Below are positions 46,979 through 56,093 of a stretch of 64,000 nucleotides of DNA, one piece after another. Numbering within the stretch: position 1 is the stretch's first letter; the number at the start of each line of letters is the position of its first letter. Both the position numbers and the translations under genes were made by a program. A model generated the notes under the pieces. The model made no database searches, was not told the DNA's origin, and saw only the letters and a list, made by a program, of their open reading frames with translations. The stretch is from a bacterium (GTDB taxonomy: Bacteria; Zhuqueibacterota; Zhuqueibacteria; Residuimicrobiales; Residuimicrobiaceae): contig JAKQNR010000052.1 in assembly GCA_029565685.1 (NCBI GenBank), forward strand, positions 157,290-221,289, written 5' to 3'.

Positions 46979-48047
46979 TTAAAAAGGAACCGTCACTCCG
47001 CGCTCCCGGCCGATGGTCTGCAGCATCTGCACCGTTTTGTCGTCCAGCGGCACGCCTTCGCGTTTATGCTTTTCGTAGCGCTCTTGCTCTTTCTCGCCGT
47101 GGATGAAAATGCGCGGTTCATCCTTCGCTCTGGCCGAATTTTTCAGGCGGTCGATCAGATCGTCCATCTTTTCGCAAAAGGTGTTGCGGTCGACAAAATT
47201 TTCGATTTTCAGCGCCATGAAAAAATGGGCGACGTTGGCCGGCTGATGCTCACCTTGAGGCCCCTTGCTGTCCACCAGATCGGCATAAGCGCCGCCGGAG
47301 AGCACGCCGCAGAGAATATCCACCAGCACCGCCAGGCCATAGCCCTTATAGCCGCTAAGCGATTCACCCGCGCCGCCCAGAGGCAGAATGCCGCCGCCTG
47401 CGCGCGCAACCATGTTCTTTAGCACATTGGCCGCGTCGCCGGTCACCCGGCCCAGCTCATCCACCGCCCAGCCTTCCGGCATGGTTTTGCCTAGGCGGTC
47501 GTACACTTCCAATTTGCCCCGCGGCACCACGGACGTGGCCATGTCGAGGAAAAAGGGCTTGTTGCGTTTTGCCGGCGCCGTGAGGCTGATCGGATTGGTG
47601 CCGATGATCATATCGCGGCCAAACGTCGGCACCACCAGCGGCGCCGAATTGGTCATGGAGATGCCAAGCAGACCGGCCTCCAGCATCATCTGACTATAGT
47701 AGCCGGCGATGCCATAGTGGTTGCTGTTGCGTACGGTCACCACTCCCACTCCACTGGTGGACGCTTTGTCAATGGCCAGTTGGCTGGCAAAATGACCGAC
47801 GATCTGGCCCAAGCCGGCGCAGCCGTCCACCGCTGCGGTGCAGGGATGATCCTGAATCACGCGCGGCCGCGCCAGCGGCAGGATGGTGCCGTTCTTCATT
47901 CCATCCACATAGCGCTTGAGTCGCGCAACGCCATGCGAAGGTATGCCGCGCAGATCTGCCAGCACCAGGTTTTCGGCGCAGATTTGAGCGTCCCGCTGAG
48001 TGAGGTCAAAGGTTGAAAAGACCTGTTGAATGAATTGCAACAGAATT

Positions 48048-48070
<23 letters not shown>
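46979..48070 (-). CDS. Ldh-family malate/L-lactate dehydrogenase-like oxidoreductase
   Basis: LADLRGIPSHGVARLKRYVDGMKNG; SNHYGIAGYYSQMMLEAGLLGISMTNSAPLVVPTFG; GTNPISLTAPAKRNKPFFLDMATSVVPRGK. Confidence 0.92.
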
Positions 48071-50776
<2,706 letters not shown>

Positions 50777-50780
<4 letters not shown>

Positions 50781-52000
50781 GCCTCTTGCCTCGTTGTTTG
50801 AATGTTCTTTCTCAGCGATCCCCATCGGTTCTGCAGATAGGGATCCTGCAGCGTCTCCATCAGATAGTCGCAGAACTGACGGCTGGTGGCGCCATCCGCC
50901 CGGCCGGTGATCACCCGCTCTTTTTCGAAACGGCTGCAGATGTCCAGCGCCATTTCGATCTTTTCCGCATTGGCGATAAAACCGATGTGGCGCAGCATCA
51001 TGGCCGCTGCCCGAATCAAGCTGCAGGGATCAGCGTACTGGCCGCGCCCCTCTTCCATCATGCGCGGCGCAGAGCCGTGAATGGCTTCGAACATGGCATA
51101 GCGCTTGCCGATGTTGGCGCTGCCGGCCGTGCCGACGCCACCCTGAAACTCGGCCGCCTCATCGGTGAGAATATCGCCGTAAAGGTTGGGCATGACCAGA
51201 ACACGAAATTGCGTACGGCGTTTGGGATCGATCAGCTTGGCCGTCATGATGTCGATGTACCAGGCGTCCCATTTGATGTCCGGATAGCGCTTGCCGATCC
51301 GCTCAGCGGTCTCGAGGAACAACCCGTCCGTGGTCTTGATGACATTGGCCTTGGTGACCACCGTGACTTTGGGGATTTTATTGGTATGCGCATAGTTGAA
51401 GGCCATCTCGATGATGCGTTCACACCCCTGTTTGGTCACAGCGGTAAAATCGATGGCCAGATCCTCGGTCACTTGAATGCCTTTGCTGCCGAGGATATAG
51501 GCGCCCTCGGTGTTCTCGCGGAAAAAGATCCAATCGATGCCTTCCTGCGGCACTTGCACAGGCCGCACATTGGCGAACAGGTCCAGTTCGCGCCGCATGG
51601 CCACGTTGGCGCTTTCGATGTTGGGATAAGGCCCGCCTTTTTCCGGCGTCGTGGTGGGCGCCTTGAGGATCACATGACAGGCCTTGAGTTCGGCCAGCAC
51701 ATCATCAGGAATCGCCTTGAGATGTTTGATCCGGTTCTCTATGGTCAACCCTTCGATGGTGCGAAAAGCCACCCGGCCCTCGCGGACCTCCTCCGCAAGA
51801 ACATGCTCCAGCACCCGCTGGGTTTCCTGGGCGATAATGGGTCCGATGCCGTCGCCCCAGCAGACGCCGATGAGGATCGGCTTGAGCGACGCGTAATCGA
51901 TCCATTGCGCATTTTTTTTCATCTCCGCCACGCGCGCCAGCTGCTCTTCGATCAGCGCACTGAAATGGGCTTTGGCTTTTTCCAATTCGGAAGAGGACAT
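50777..52000 (-). CDS. Isocitrate/isopropylmalate-family dehydrogenase, probable isocitrate dehydrogenase
   Basis: GVCWGDGIGPIIAQETQRVLEHVL; FRENTEGAYILGSKGI; VLVMPNLYGDILTDEAAEFQGGVGTAGSANIGKRYAMFEAIHGSAP; 4-nt ATGA overlap with acnA. Confidence 0.9.
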
Positions 52001-52031
52001 AGGGGCTTTTCCTTTCTATCGGTTATAACCT

Positions 52032-53909
52032 TCAGGGGTGATTGCTCGGTCGCTTCGGCTTATGGTCTATGATACGTTGGTTGATTTGCTTCAGCTCTGT
52101 TTCGATCCGTCCCAGCATCAGGCGGCAGTACGAATCGTACTCTGCGCTGCACTTCAGCGCCTCTTCCTTCAGCCCTTTTTCCACTAGGGCGATAAAGGCG
52201 TTCAAAGAAGACGCTGACACCGGCATCGGCTGCGCCGCCCAGTCCACCAGCGATTGTTCGATCTCTTCATAGTGCGCCTGAAACGGCCGCTCTTTGACGC
52301 CTTTGAACGGATAGGGGTTGGCGGCGATCTGAAATCCTTTCAAGGCCATGATCAGCGGCTGGTAATCCCGGCCGGCCGTCAGTCTGGGAAATTGAAATTC
52401 CACCACCGAAGACCATTTGCGGTCCGATGGATTCTGATGATGCCGATTCAGCCGCGACAGGCAGACGCCGACCTCCGGATGGGTGATTTCCTCTTTGTAA
52501 ATGCGCCATTCGCGCAACCGCCCCTGATCGTCCTCATGCAGATCTCCGCCCAGCAACAGCAGGCAGAGAAAAAATTGCGGATCGTCGATCCTGCGAAAGG
52601 GGCGGTCCGGCAATATCTCCATACTGATGTGCAGACTGTGCGGTCGAACATCGATATAGTCCACCGCCAGTTCGATCATGCGGCTGAGCACCCAGGCGTC
52701 GTCGGTAGCCGGTTTGCTCACATCGCCCAGCAGACGATAGCGGCCGAAAGCGAGCTCCATAAAACCGCGGGTGCGCACATCCGGCGAAGTCAAAAAACCA
52801 TGATCATCGATATGTGCGCCCAGCTTCCATCCGCGGCGCATGAGATCAAAGTCATAAAAATAATAAAAGCCGTCGTAGACCGGATCCTGGCGTTCCACGG
52901 CAGCGACGGCCTGGACGCCGAGGTTGGAGAACTCGAGTTCCGCGCCCAGCGGATGGTTTCCGCTGCGCCGGTTCTTCTTGACCTGATAGACGATCTCATC
53001 AGCCAGGTCCAGATCAAAGATCTCCTCGGCGATCATGATGGCTGCCACGCCGTAATCGATATAGCGCAGGTCCTCGCGATAGGTGTTGACGCCCATCTGA
53101 GTCATGGCGGTTTGCACCCGCGTCCGCTGCATCTGCAGCAGCTGGAGCGCCATCAATCCGGACAGTGTGTGATGATAATAGTTCGGTTTTGTCTGGACGC
53201 TGCCGCGGTACTGGTCGCGAAATTTTTCCTCTAATTGATTAAAAATAATAAATTTAATTACCATATTCAGATAGGCGTCCGCATAAGCTTGGGCCTTGCG
53301 ATCCGCGGCCAGCCAGTCCAGGGACGGCAGGCTGGCGCTTTCGATTTCATGCTTGATGATGAACGGCGGCAAGCCGGCGTCGATAAAATGCTGACTGAGC
53401 AGTGATTCAACCTCTTCGGACAGCAGTTCGCGGGTGACCATGAGCGACAGGTGTTTGCGGTCCATGAGCAGGTTTCGATCCGCTTTGTTTTCCAGATAGC
53501 GCTCTACCTGGCGGGCGACAAACTCCTCGATCCGATCGCGGTCGTTGAAGCCTTTTTTAAGATAGGGTTTGAGCGCTTTGGGATCGCCGACATAGACATA
53601 GGCCTGAGTGATCTCCGCGCCGATTTTGACCCGGGCGATGCGCCGGTGGTAGAGGTGGCCCTCGCCCTCATATTCGTCCAGTTTTTGTAAAGCAGCCGAG
53701 GTGACGCCGGAGAGCAGTTTTCCGCTGATGCGGGAGCCGTTCCAGGGCAGGGCAAAAGCAAAGCTGTTGCGCCGCTGCACGCGACGATGATCCAGCAATT
53801 CAGCCGGCTGCGCGGAAAAGGAGCGGCCGGTCAGAATGTGAAAATACTGTTCATTGTTCAACGAGCCGTAGACGAACAGCTTGTCCAATGTCGGGTTTGC
53901 GGTTTCCAA
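52032..53909 (-). CDS. GGCT/AIG2-like gamma-glutamylcyclotransferase domain fused to a putative glutamine-synthetase-fold amidoligase-like region
   Basis: KLFVYGSLNNEQYFHIL and LQKLDEYEGEGHLYHRRIARVKIG (GGCT signatures); C-terminal region GNHPLGAELEFSNLGVQAV, PHSLHISMEI and SSVVEFQFPRL compatible with amidoligase motifs. Confidence 0.65.
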   Translation of the reverse strand: METANPTLDKLFVYGSLNNEQYFHILTGRSFSAQPAELLDHRRVQRRNSFAFALPWNGSRISGKLLSGVTSAALQKLDEYEGEGHLYHRRIARVKIGAEITQAYVYVGDPKALKPYLKKGFNDRDRIEEFVARQVERYLENKADRNLLMDRKHLSLMVTRELLSEEVESLLSQHFIDAGLPPFIIKHEIESASLPSLDWLAADRKAQAYADAYLNMVIKFIIFNQLEEKFRDQYRGSVQTKPNYYHHTLSGLMALQLLQMQRTRVQTAMTQMGVNTYREDLRYIDYGVAAIMIAEEIFDLDLADEIVYQVKKNRRSGNHPLGAELEFSNLGVQAVAAVERQDPVYDGFYYFYDFDLMRRGWKLGAHIDDHGFLTSPDVRTRGFMELAFGRYRLLGDVSKPATDDAWVLSRMIELAVDYIDVRPHSLHISMEILPDRPFRRIDDPQFFLCLLLLGGDLHEDDQGRLREWRIYKEEITHPEVGVCLSRLNRHHQNPSDRKWSSVVEFQFPRLTAGRDYQPLIMALKGFQIAANPYPFKGVKERPFQAHYEEIEQSLVDWAAQPMPVSASSLNAFIALVEKGLKEEALKCSAEYDSYCRLMLGRIETELKQINQRIIDHKPKRPSNHP

Positions 53910-53969: not shown

Positions 53970-55331
53970 TCAGACGGAATCAAAGTGTTTTTTGAACAGC
54001 TCGGCCATCTCCTCCGGCGAGATGGCGGTGATGCGGCCGTTTTCATACTGGGTTTCCACCCATTCGAACATTTTAGCGATGCGGGGATCGCGTTTATCCA
54101 ACGCCGGTTTGCCCCGTTTCTGCAGTTCGCGGTTCACCCAGAAACCGACGCCGGCGATGCCGGAGCGATCGGTGATGTTGACGTCCAACGGCCGGTTGAG
54201 AATTTTGCCGGTATCGAAAATATTATAGATCTCTTCGTTTTTAATTACGCCGTCGGCATGGATGCCGGCCATGGTGACGTTGAACCGTTCGCCGACAAAG
54301 GGAAAGTTGGCCGGCACCGGCGTACCGATCTCGCGCACATAATCAGCGATGTCGCTGACCGCGGTCAGATCCATGCCGTTGGTATGACCGGTGAGGGAGG
54401 CGTATTCCACCGCCAGCGCTTCTAGAGGCGAATTGCCGGTGCGTTCGCCGAATCCCAGAAGCGCGCCGTTGACGCTGGCGACGCCGGACAGCCAGGCGGT
54501 GAGGGAGTTGATGTGGACCTTGTGGAAATCGTTATGGCCGTGCCATTCCAGGTTTTCCGACGGAATGCCGAATTCCCGTTGCAGATAAAACACCATTTTG
54601 GGGATGGAGCGCGGCAGAGCGGCGTTCGCCCAGGGCACGCCGTAGCCCATGGTGTCGCAGAGACGGATTTTAATGCGCAATCCGGATTTCTGCGAAAAGT
54701 TCATCAGCTCTTCTGTAAAGGGCATGACGCAGCCCCAAAAGTCGGCGCGGGTCACGTCTTCATAATGGCAGCGGATGGCTTCCAGGCCCGCTTCCGCGGC
54801 TGCCCGCACCACCTGCATAAAGGCGTCCAGCGCCTGTCGCCGCGTTTTTTTCAGCTTTAAAAAGATGTGATAGTCTGAGATAGAGGTGAGCATGCCGGTC
54901 TCTTTCAACCCCACCTGCTTGACCAGCTCAAAATCAGCGGGATTGGCGCGGATCCAGGCCGTTACCTCTGGATAACGATAGCCCTTGCGGCGCACCTCTT
55001 CGAGGATTTCGCGGTCGTGGCTGGAATAGATGAAAAATTCTGACTGGCGGATGATGCCGTGGGGCCCGGAAAGCCGGTTGAGCAGATCGAACAGTCGTGA
55101 TACTTGTTCCACCGTGAACGGCGTCCGCGACTGCTGTCCGTCGCGAAAAGTGGTGTCGGTGATCCAAATCTCGTCTGCCGGTTCAGGGGCGACCCACACG
55201 CCGTCAAAGATCGTTTTGGGTATTTCGCTGTATGGAAACTGATCGCGCATGAGCTGCGGTTCATCGACATCAGCCAACGGGTAATGCGCCGTCGCCCGAT
55301 TCAATAGCCAGGGGTGAGCAGCGGTGGTCAT
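53970..55331 (-). CDS. Re-type citrate synthase (isopropylmalate/homocitrate synthase superfamily)
   Basis: WITDTTFRDGQQSRTPFTVEQVSRLFDLLNRLSGPHGIIRQSEFFIYSSHDREILEEVRRKGYRYPEVTAWIRA; LKETGMLTSISDYHIFLKLKKTRRQA; RLCDTMGYGVPWANAALPRSIPKMV; EWHGHNDFHKVHINSLTAWLSG; GIHADGVIKNEEIYNIFDTGKILNRPLDVNITDRSG. aaggag RBS before ATG 55331. Confidence 0.82.
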   Translation of the reverse strand: MTTAAHPWLLNRATAHYPLADVDEPQLMRDQFPYSEIPKTIFDGVWVAPEPADEIWITDTTFRDGQQSRTPFTVEQVSRLFDLLNRLSGPHGIIRQSEFFIYSSHDREILEEVRRKGYRYPEVTAWIRANPADFELVKQVGLKETGMLTSISDYHIFLKLKKTRRQALDAFMQVVRAAAEAGLEAIRCHYEDVTRADFWGCVMPFTEELMNFSQKSGLRIKIRLCDTMGYGVPWANAALPRSIPKMVFYLQREFGIPSENLEWHGHNDFHKVHINSLTAWLSGVASVNGALLGFGERTGNSPLEALAVEYASLTGHTNGMDLTAVSDIADYVREIGTPVPANFPFVGERFNVTMAGIHADGVIKNEEIYNIFDTGKILNRPLDVNITDRSGIAGVGFWVNRELQKRGKPALDKRDPRIAKMFEWVETQYENGRITAISPEEMAELFKKHFDSV

Positions 55332-55541
55332 AGGCAACTCCTTTAAATATCAAAACCAGTAAAGCATAACGCAGGCAGCGGCCGGGGGTAAATCCGGTGA
55401 AGAGGCTGAGCGTCAACTAGTATAATGGGTTTCGACCATAATGTCAAGGGATAATTTCATTGCATTTTACATTGGATTGCACTAATTTATATCAGTGCTT
55501 ATTACCATGGTCCGTCAATTCTATAGAAAGTCCAGCGAACG

Positions 55542-56093
55542 ATGAGATGCTTTCTGTTTGTGCTCTGCAGCTTTGCCGTCGCTCCGGGGCAAATTCCTGC
55601 CGTGACCACGACCAACGCTGGAACCTCGACGTCCCAGGAAGAGGACCGGTTCACGCTGGATGAGTCCTGGGATCCAGCCGCATTGCTGGATTTGAGCCTG
55701 GACACCAGCGCTGTGCGCCAGCAGGTGATTCGCAAAGAACAGTTTGAGGCTCTGCTAAAGGGACGCAGCAAAGTGGAAGAGAGCGCGGGTTTGTATGCCA
55801 ATGGGTATCGGGTGCAGTTGGTCGCCACTCGGGAAGAGGCGGAAGCTCGGGCCAACATGCAGAGCGCGCTGCTTTCGTTCAGCGAAAACGTCTATCTGCT
55901 GTTCGATAATCCCTATTACAAGCTGCGCGTGGGCGATTGCCTTTCTCGCAGTCAGGCTGATTCGCTGCAGCAGCGCGCCTTGGCCAAGGGGTTTGCCAAA
56001 GCGTGGATCACCCGCTCTCAGGTGTACAAGCAGCCGCCTGACCGCAACAGTCTGATCTCCTCGCCCGGCGATTCTCTGTTCCTGCATCGCTGA
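55542..56093 (+). CDS. Secreted SPOR-domain protein
   Basis: Signal peptide; C-terminal GYRVQLVATREEAEARANMQSALLSFSENVYLLFDNPYYKLRVGDCLSRSQADSLQQRALAKGFAKAWITRSQV is SPOR-like. Confidence 0.75.
   Translation: MRCFLFVLCSFAVAPGQIPAVTTTNAGTSTSQEEDRFTLDESWDPAALLDLSLDTSAVRQQVIRKEQFEALLKGRSKVEESAGLYANGYRVQLVATREEAEARANMQSALLSFSENVYLLFDNPYYKLRVGDCLSRSQADSLQQRALAKGFAKAWITRSQVYKQPPDRNSLISSPGDSLFLHR

Follow-up and report, generated by a model that had tools for sequence, protein, structure and literature searches.

The 64,000-nucleotide stretch of DNA analysed here (the window) encodes a 625-residue protein that is a real, conserved domain fusion, in which a cyclotransferase of the GGACT/AIG2 family is joined to a larger part for which no family model exists and whose core likely adopts the fold of glutamine synthetase (GS). 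Its domain layout, conservation, gene linkage and GGCT family membership are established. To our knowledge, pairs of a GS-fold amidoligase and an AIG2-type cyclotransferase are known only as neighbouring genes, and a conserved single-chain version would offer a purifiable object for testing whether such pairs make and break one amide. A survey of amidoligases from 2009 reportedly linked this superfamily with AIG2-like cyclotransferases, usually encoded by adjacent genes. This premise of the original prediction is independently visible in the gene table of phage UFV-P2 (PMC3890496). The locus is summarised in Table 1.

Table 1. Features of the fusion gene and its surroundings (window positions; residue numbers refer to the fusion protein).
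Feature	Position	Strand	Basis
Fusion protein, GGCT - helical region - GS-like domain	52032..53909	minus	625 aa, full-length homologues
GGACT/AIG2-like gamma-glutamyl cyclotransferase domain, residues 11-110	53580..53879	minus	Pfam PF06094; PDB 2g0q/3jub
E81, predicted cyclotransferase acid/base Glu of LDEYE	53667..53669	minus	invariant; aligned with E82 of human GGACT
Conserved all-helical region, residues about 120-300	53010..53552	minus	conservation, predicted helices, without Pfam match
GS-like core domain, residues 306-545	52275..52994	minus	Foldseek; mean column identity 77%
GAELEFSN, residues 322-329, ExE, predicted metal-binding strand	52923..52946	minus	ExEF invariant; predicted strand 316-327
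WKLGAHIDDH, residues 361-370, counterpart of amidoligase G-x-x-x-E-x-D segment	52800..52829	minus	by spacing; low-confidence structure
GFMELAFGR, residues 382-390, predicted second metal-Glu strand (E385)	52740..52766	minus	conservation and predicted strand
PHSLHIS, residues 423-429, HxS counterpart of HxN/HxH	52623..52643	minus	conservation; predicted strand 423-431
SRLNRH, residues 485-490, predicted substrate-Arg strand (R486)	52440..52457	minus	R486 invariant; predicted strand 485-490
VVEFQFPRL, residues 502-510, counterpart of GS E-x-R strand	52380..52406	minus	E504 and Q506 invariant; predicted strand 500-508
DRE-TIM synthase (HMGL-like), probable Re-citrate synthase, operon's first gene	53970..55337	minus	PF00682 E 5e-29
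Isocitrate dehydrogenase family protein, gene after fusion	50777..52000	minus	PF00180 E 8e-67
Aconitate hydratase, AcnA type	48048..50825	minus	TIGR01341 1294 bits, cut-off 945
Malate/L-lactate (Ldh_2) dehydrogenase family, next gene of run	46979..48118	minus	PF02615 E 9e-123
Sigma-70-like promoter match, 11/12, just upstream of synthase gene	55419..55447	minus	from a consensus scan, which does not show function

Architecture of the fusion protein

The open reading frame lies exactly where it had been placed (52032-53909, minus strand, 625 aa) and begins with TTG, which is the first ATG, GTG or TTG after the preceding stop; since FVYGSL starts only 11 residues further on, a non-ATG start is likely. 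Each of the motifs singled out originally (FVYGSL, LDEYEGEGHLYHRR, GAELEFSN, LHISMEI and VVEFQFPRL) is found in this frame. They are not chance occurrences, because FVYG[ST]L, [LI]D[DE]YE, GAE[LM]EFS, PHS[LV]Hx[ST] and V[VI]E[YF]QFxRL are colinear in all homologues spanning the region and because the C-terminal motifs sit in invariant or nearly invariant columns (alignment of 11 sequences, 51-59% identity). The original prediction of a GGCT-like N-terminus followed by one large, GS-like C-terminal part is partly supported; its remainder of about 480 residues actually measures about 515 and comprises three sub-regions, namely an all-helical region of about 180 residues (about 120-300) that had been overlooked, a GS-like core of about 240 residues (306-545) and C-terminal helices (546-616).

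The cyclotransferase domain is the firmest of these assignments. Residues 11-110 match PF06094 with an E-value of 6.7e-16 and 59.4 bits (Pfam cut-off 22.8). Nine of the 11 members of alignment A1 match this family too, the other two rows being contig-edge fragments that lack the N-terminal domain. A profile made from the nine fusion N-termini leads to AIG2/GGACT structures in the PDB, and Foldseek likewise bears out the GGCT-like character. The catalytic Glu of this fold is retained as anticipated: in the alignment to 3jub, E81 falls on E82 of human GGACT, which is the residue mutated in PDB entry 3jud (entry title), and no homologue covering this position departs from Glu. The likeness to human GGACT (PF06094, 3juc) extends over the N-terminal 100 residues and includes the catalytic Glu that aligns with E82 and the YGSL loop; in the fusion, however, the cyclotransferase shares one chain with its partner of about 515 residues. 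GGACT enzymes cyclise gamma-glutamylamines to 5-oxoproline. The N-terminus of the fusion, which yields the sole GGACT match in the window's genome, is by sequence a member of this GGACT/AIG2 family and is predicted to release 5-oxoproline.

The middle region is conserved among homologues (47-61% identity, alignment A3) and helical in the predicted structure. A Pfam search with residues about 120-300 returned zero family matches, and hhalign detected no relation to the neighbouring RsbR_N/HisK-N-like protein of about 170 residues that is described below. As a guess, this region may act as a substrate lid or an oligomer interface.

Fold and motifs of the C-terminal part

Searches of Pfam and NCBIfam, neither of which has a model for the core domain, did not match the C-terminal part to any GS-fold family. 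Neither Pup_ligase (PF03136) nor Amidoligase_2 (PF12224) matches the fusion protein, the latter being without a match in the window's own genome as well, and GCS2 (PF04107) and Gln-synt_C (PF00120) gave zero matches at the locus. Profile-profile comparisons were also made against glutamine synthetase, GCS2, PafA and Amidoligase_2, each represented by fetched sequences; they were blank, but equally so between known GS-fold families, and are hence powerless. A match to PHROG 23382 at residues 341-377 (E 0.0007-0.003) was set aside, as the family is short and the match too weak.

The evidence for the fold comes instead from AlphaFold models, which were built with 11 sequences of the protein's own family. 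The full-length model is of moderate quality (pLDDT 71) and that of residues 298-618 slightly better (pLDDT 73, pTM 0.78), with residues 327-396 poorly modelled in the latter (pLDDT < 50). When the 298-618 model was compared with the PDB by Foldseek, ranks 1-12 were all taken by GS-fold proteins: PafA (probability 0.98), Dop (0.96) and glutamine synthetases, both archaeal and from Azotobacter (8tfc and 8oon, 0.80-0.85). Gamma-glutamylcysteine synthetase of E. coli followed at rank 22 (0.30), and the next non-GS folds listed were lipoate and biotin ligases at about 0.1 or less. Against BFVD, a library of viral models, phage proteins named "amidoligase enzymes" occupied ranks 2, 3, 5, 7 and 9, and with the full-length model PafA (0.92), Dop (0.82) and GshAB (0.30) were retrieved. 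Because the E-values are weak (the best is 9e-4, the sole PDB match at E<=0.001) and the TM-scores low (0.2-0.44), the claim concerns the fold class and not the detailed geometry. Modelling followed by a Foldseek search had been named from the outset as the check on this region, and its outcome, a PDB top 12 made up of GS-fold proteins throughout, favours the original prediction, low TM-scores aside. Summed up, two separate models and two libraries point to GS-fold carboxylate-amine ligases, low TM-scores and the missing sequence family match weigh on the other side, and a GS fold of the C-terminal domain is likely, being supported though not proven by these models. The reading as a fusion of a GGCT with a candidate ligase is contradicted at neither end, the N-terminus being GGCT-like by Pfam, PDB profile and Foldseek and the C-terminus GS-like by the two models and two libraries, although sequence families do not back the latter.

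In total, 106 columns are invariant among 11 aligned C-terminal halves, the predicted catalytic acids included. E324/E326, E385 and H427 are invariant, and the ExE strand, the second Glu strand (a predicted strand at 382-386 carries ELAFG) and the His strand occur in the same order as in amidoligases. By comparison with glutamine synthetase, E324/E326, E385, H427, R486 and E504 are the candidates for binding metal and substrate. What GS has as its E-x-R strand (RIExR) is not preserved as such: the counterpart, placed according to its motif and its rank in the strand order, reads E504-x-Q506 with Gln for Arg in every homologue.

Amidoligase_2 and the phage COOH-NH2 ligases resemble the fusion in the order and spacing of G-x-E-x-E-F, D, E and H-x-N/S. 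The distance from ExE to D is 44 in the fusion and 46 in fetched Amidoligase_2 proteins, that from E to H 42 and 37-40, respectively. A spacing pattern of G-x-E-x-E-F, D, E-L/I and H-x-N/S was found in eight of nine amidoligases and in the fusion copies that include the region, in nothing else among 542 ORFs and in none of 20,000 shuffles. It was read off Amidoligase_2, but its last residue class and its loop range were broadened in view of the fusion, which makes it supportive but not blind. Phage amidoligases are not only among the best BFVD matches but also share the co-occurrence with AIG2, as in phage UFV-P2 (PMC3890496). Unlike Amidoligase_2, however, the fusion has HxS, a Gln in the E-x-R strand, an extra helical region and another gene context, and shows no significant sequence match.

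Distribution and gene neighbourhood

Named relatives place the host in candidate division KSB1 (NCBI: Zhuqueibacterota). Within this phylum (82 genomes searched), the fusion occurs in 14 genomes, always intact and all of one order; a fifteenth match (G066) covers the cyclotransferase part only. It is also present in KSB3, in the bacterium UASB14, which bears the name Moduliflexus flocculans (PMC4312070). A chimera or an assembly error as its source is ruled out by the identical architecture in 14 genomes and a second phylum. A profile of the C-terminal part, run across the whole of KSB1, retrieved only fusions and chance-level matches and no stand-alone copies, and tblastn of phage and plasmid collections and of viral contigs yielded no relatives of this part.

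The most informative context, which the original prediction overlooked, is an operon with a citrate-synthase-like gene. This synthase gene directly precedes that of the fusion wherever the junction is assembled, at a gap of 0 to about 140 bases (first-start ORF calls) and with start/stop overlap at two loci. At 73-100% identity, the synthase is found in exactly the 14 KSB1 genomes that carry the fusion, and in KSB3 the fusion is likewise paired with a synthase of at least 73% identity. Downstream, the KSB1 loci usually encode the RsbR_N/HisK-N-like protein of about 170 residues and isocitrate dehydrogenase, in several cases also aconitase. The RsbR_N/HisK-N-like gene adjoins the fusion in most relatives, KSB3 included; it is absent beside the fusion in the window, in its sister genome and at locus L012 (window positions 51990-52040, L012 and L003), and a profile search of the window's genome found no copy. 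As an isocitrate dehydrogenase homologue was not found within the stretch fetched for UASB14, the tie of the fusion is perhaps to the synthase alone. The AcnA-type gene of the window may truly start at an internal ATG near 50780. By eye only, two or three LutA-, LutB- and LutC-like genes lie downstream of isocitrate dehydrogenase at five loci (L019, L020, L023, L024 and L025), and a divergent gene for a conserved small protein (55542-56093, plus strand) is equally placed in most KSB1 relatives.

The synthase falls in the homocitrate/isopropylmalate synthase group, to which Re-citrate synthases belong and as which they are often misannotated (PMC12016533). Ordinary Si-citrate synthase (PF00285) is missing in 12 of the 14 fusion genomes, G000 among them, compared to 10 of the 68 others; it is thus present in 58 of the 68 genomes without fusion (Fisher p 5e-7, not corrected for ancestry; p 0.05 within the order alone). 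Since these 12 genomes lack the ordinary enzyme, the synthase is probably a Re-citrate synthase, an assignment made from its HMGL-like domain and from a genome without Si-citrate synthase. Adjacent aconitase and isocitrate dehydrogenase make this the natural reading, so that the operon would represent the citrate-to-2-oxoglutarate (glutamate) branch. The absence of PF00285 despite an aconitase/isocitrate dehydrogenase operon, in G000 and 11 further fusion genomes of the order, points to Re-citrate synthase in KSB1. A second synthase group, 53-55% identical, occurs in G052, G053, G037, G045, G039 and G040, of which G039 and G040 are without fusion.

Proposed function and related systems

GS-fold ligases typically phosphorylate the gamma-carboxylate of a glutamyl group and then pass it to an amine. 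Taken together with this chemistry, the simplest joint reading, and a plausible one, is that one domain makes a gamma-glutamyl amide which the other unmakes. At the expense of ATP, the C-terminal domain would couple an amine to a carboxylate, for which the gamma-carboxylate of glutamate is the most likely candidate, and the GGACT-type domain would later strip the glutamyl group as 5-oxoproline, freeing the amine. An amine of a metabolite or protein would in this way be tagged or protected reversibly by a gamma-glutamyl group. Through its operon with the probable Re-citrate synthase and usually isocitrate dehydrogenase and aconitase, the fusion may use or gauge the glutamate end of the pathway. 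Ligase activity, glutamate as substrate and the make-and-break cycle are what we infer, and for the whole, a bifunctional enzyme that makes and later cyclises off a glutamyl amide and is tied to the citrate-to-glutamate branch, we consider the case evenly balanced. Through the obligate pairing with a probable Re-citrate synthase, amidoligase/AIG2 chemistry is linked with primary metabolism, not with phages or with secondary metabolites.

Another scenario, unlikely though by no means far-fetched, is that the fusion modifies proteins. The GS-like domain would transfer a glutamyl or peptide group onto a lysine, either in the neighbouring synthase or in some other protein, in the manner of PafA and Pup, and the cyclotransferase would reset the modification, which would put the pathway's first enzyme under the control of the fusion. 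The genomic tie is tightest with the synthase gene, which accompanies the fusion in 14 of 14 genomes and also in UASB14, where the stretch fetched shows no isocitrate dehydrogenase; PafA and Dop (PF03136) are the fold matches of highest probability, and the RsbR_N/HisK-N-like protein that often adjoins the fusion resembles a sensor. Yet GGCT-type enzymes are known for small gamma-glutamyl compounds, no sensor-like gene adjoins the fusion in the window's genus or at L012 (nor does a profile search find one in the window's genome), and, unlike in PafA/Dop systems, the fusion has no PF03136 match and neither a Pup-like gene in the operon nor a proteasome context was seen. The chemistry of PafA and Dop is described in PMC3511204. 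In a bolder and quite unlikely version, a writer (the GS-fold ligase) and an eraser (the cyclotransferase) in one chain would modify, or be metabolically coupled to, the Re-citrate synthase and thereby set, in two candidate phyla, the flux that leads from acetyl-CoA to glutamate; if true, this would amount to an unrecognised control system in central carbon/nitrogen metabolism.

The example of Dop also raises the distinctly unlikely alternative of a two-step breaker without ligation, in which the GS-fold domain is an amidase or deamidase and the two domains cleave amides of a single class of substrates. Dop shares the fold at a high match probability, and a Gln that invariably replaces the arginine of ExR hints at changed chemistry, but Dop is an exception within a superfamily of ligases and the ExE and His-strand elements are laid out as in amidoligases. 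It is improbable, too, that the C-terminal domain is degenerate or non-GS and serves for sensing or scaffolding only, the Foldseek matches stemming from a partly wrong model: low TM-scores and a poorly modelled stretch of 70 residues would fit, whereas one fold emerged from two models and two libraries, and the 106 invariant columns with their predicted catalytic acids argue for catalysis. Highly improbable, finally, is a gamma-glutamylcysteine-type enzyme that replaces GCS2 in the synthesis and turnover of low-molecular-weight thiols, for although GGCTs break down gamma-glutamyl peptides and none of the 14 fusion genomes has GCS2, compared to 22 of the 68 others, GCS2 is missing throughout the order whether or not a genome carries the fusion, which may reflect ancestry alone, and glutathione synthetase was not noted beside the fusion.

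The make-and-break reading has parallels among known systems. In butirosin biosynthesis, the ligase BtrJ adds a gamma-Glu that the GGCT-fold BtrG takes off. Ligase and GGCT-fold remover are thus common to both, but BtrJ and BtrG are separate proteins of an antibiotic pathway and the ligase is of the ATP-grasp type. For fungal FluG, a comparable fusion logic has been proposed with other parts: as in the fusion, one chain combines an amide-bond hydrolase-type domain with a GS-type gamma-glutamyl ligase, but the breaking domain is a TIM-barrel amidohydrolase instead of a GGCT, and the sequence of the GS part marks it as an ordinary relative of GS (PMC6478659). On three alphaproteobacterial plasmids (L106, L108 and L109), an amidoligase gene is directly followed by one of the class I glutamine amidotransferase or gamma-Glu-GABA hydrolase family, which represents another pairing of ligase and breaker.
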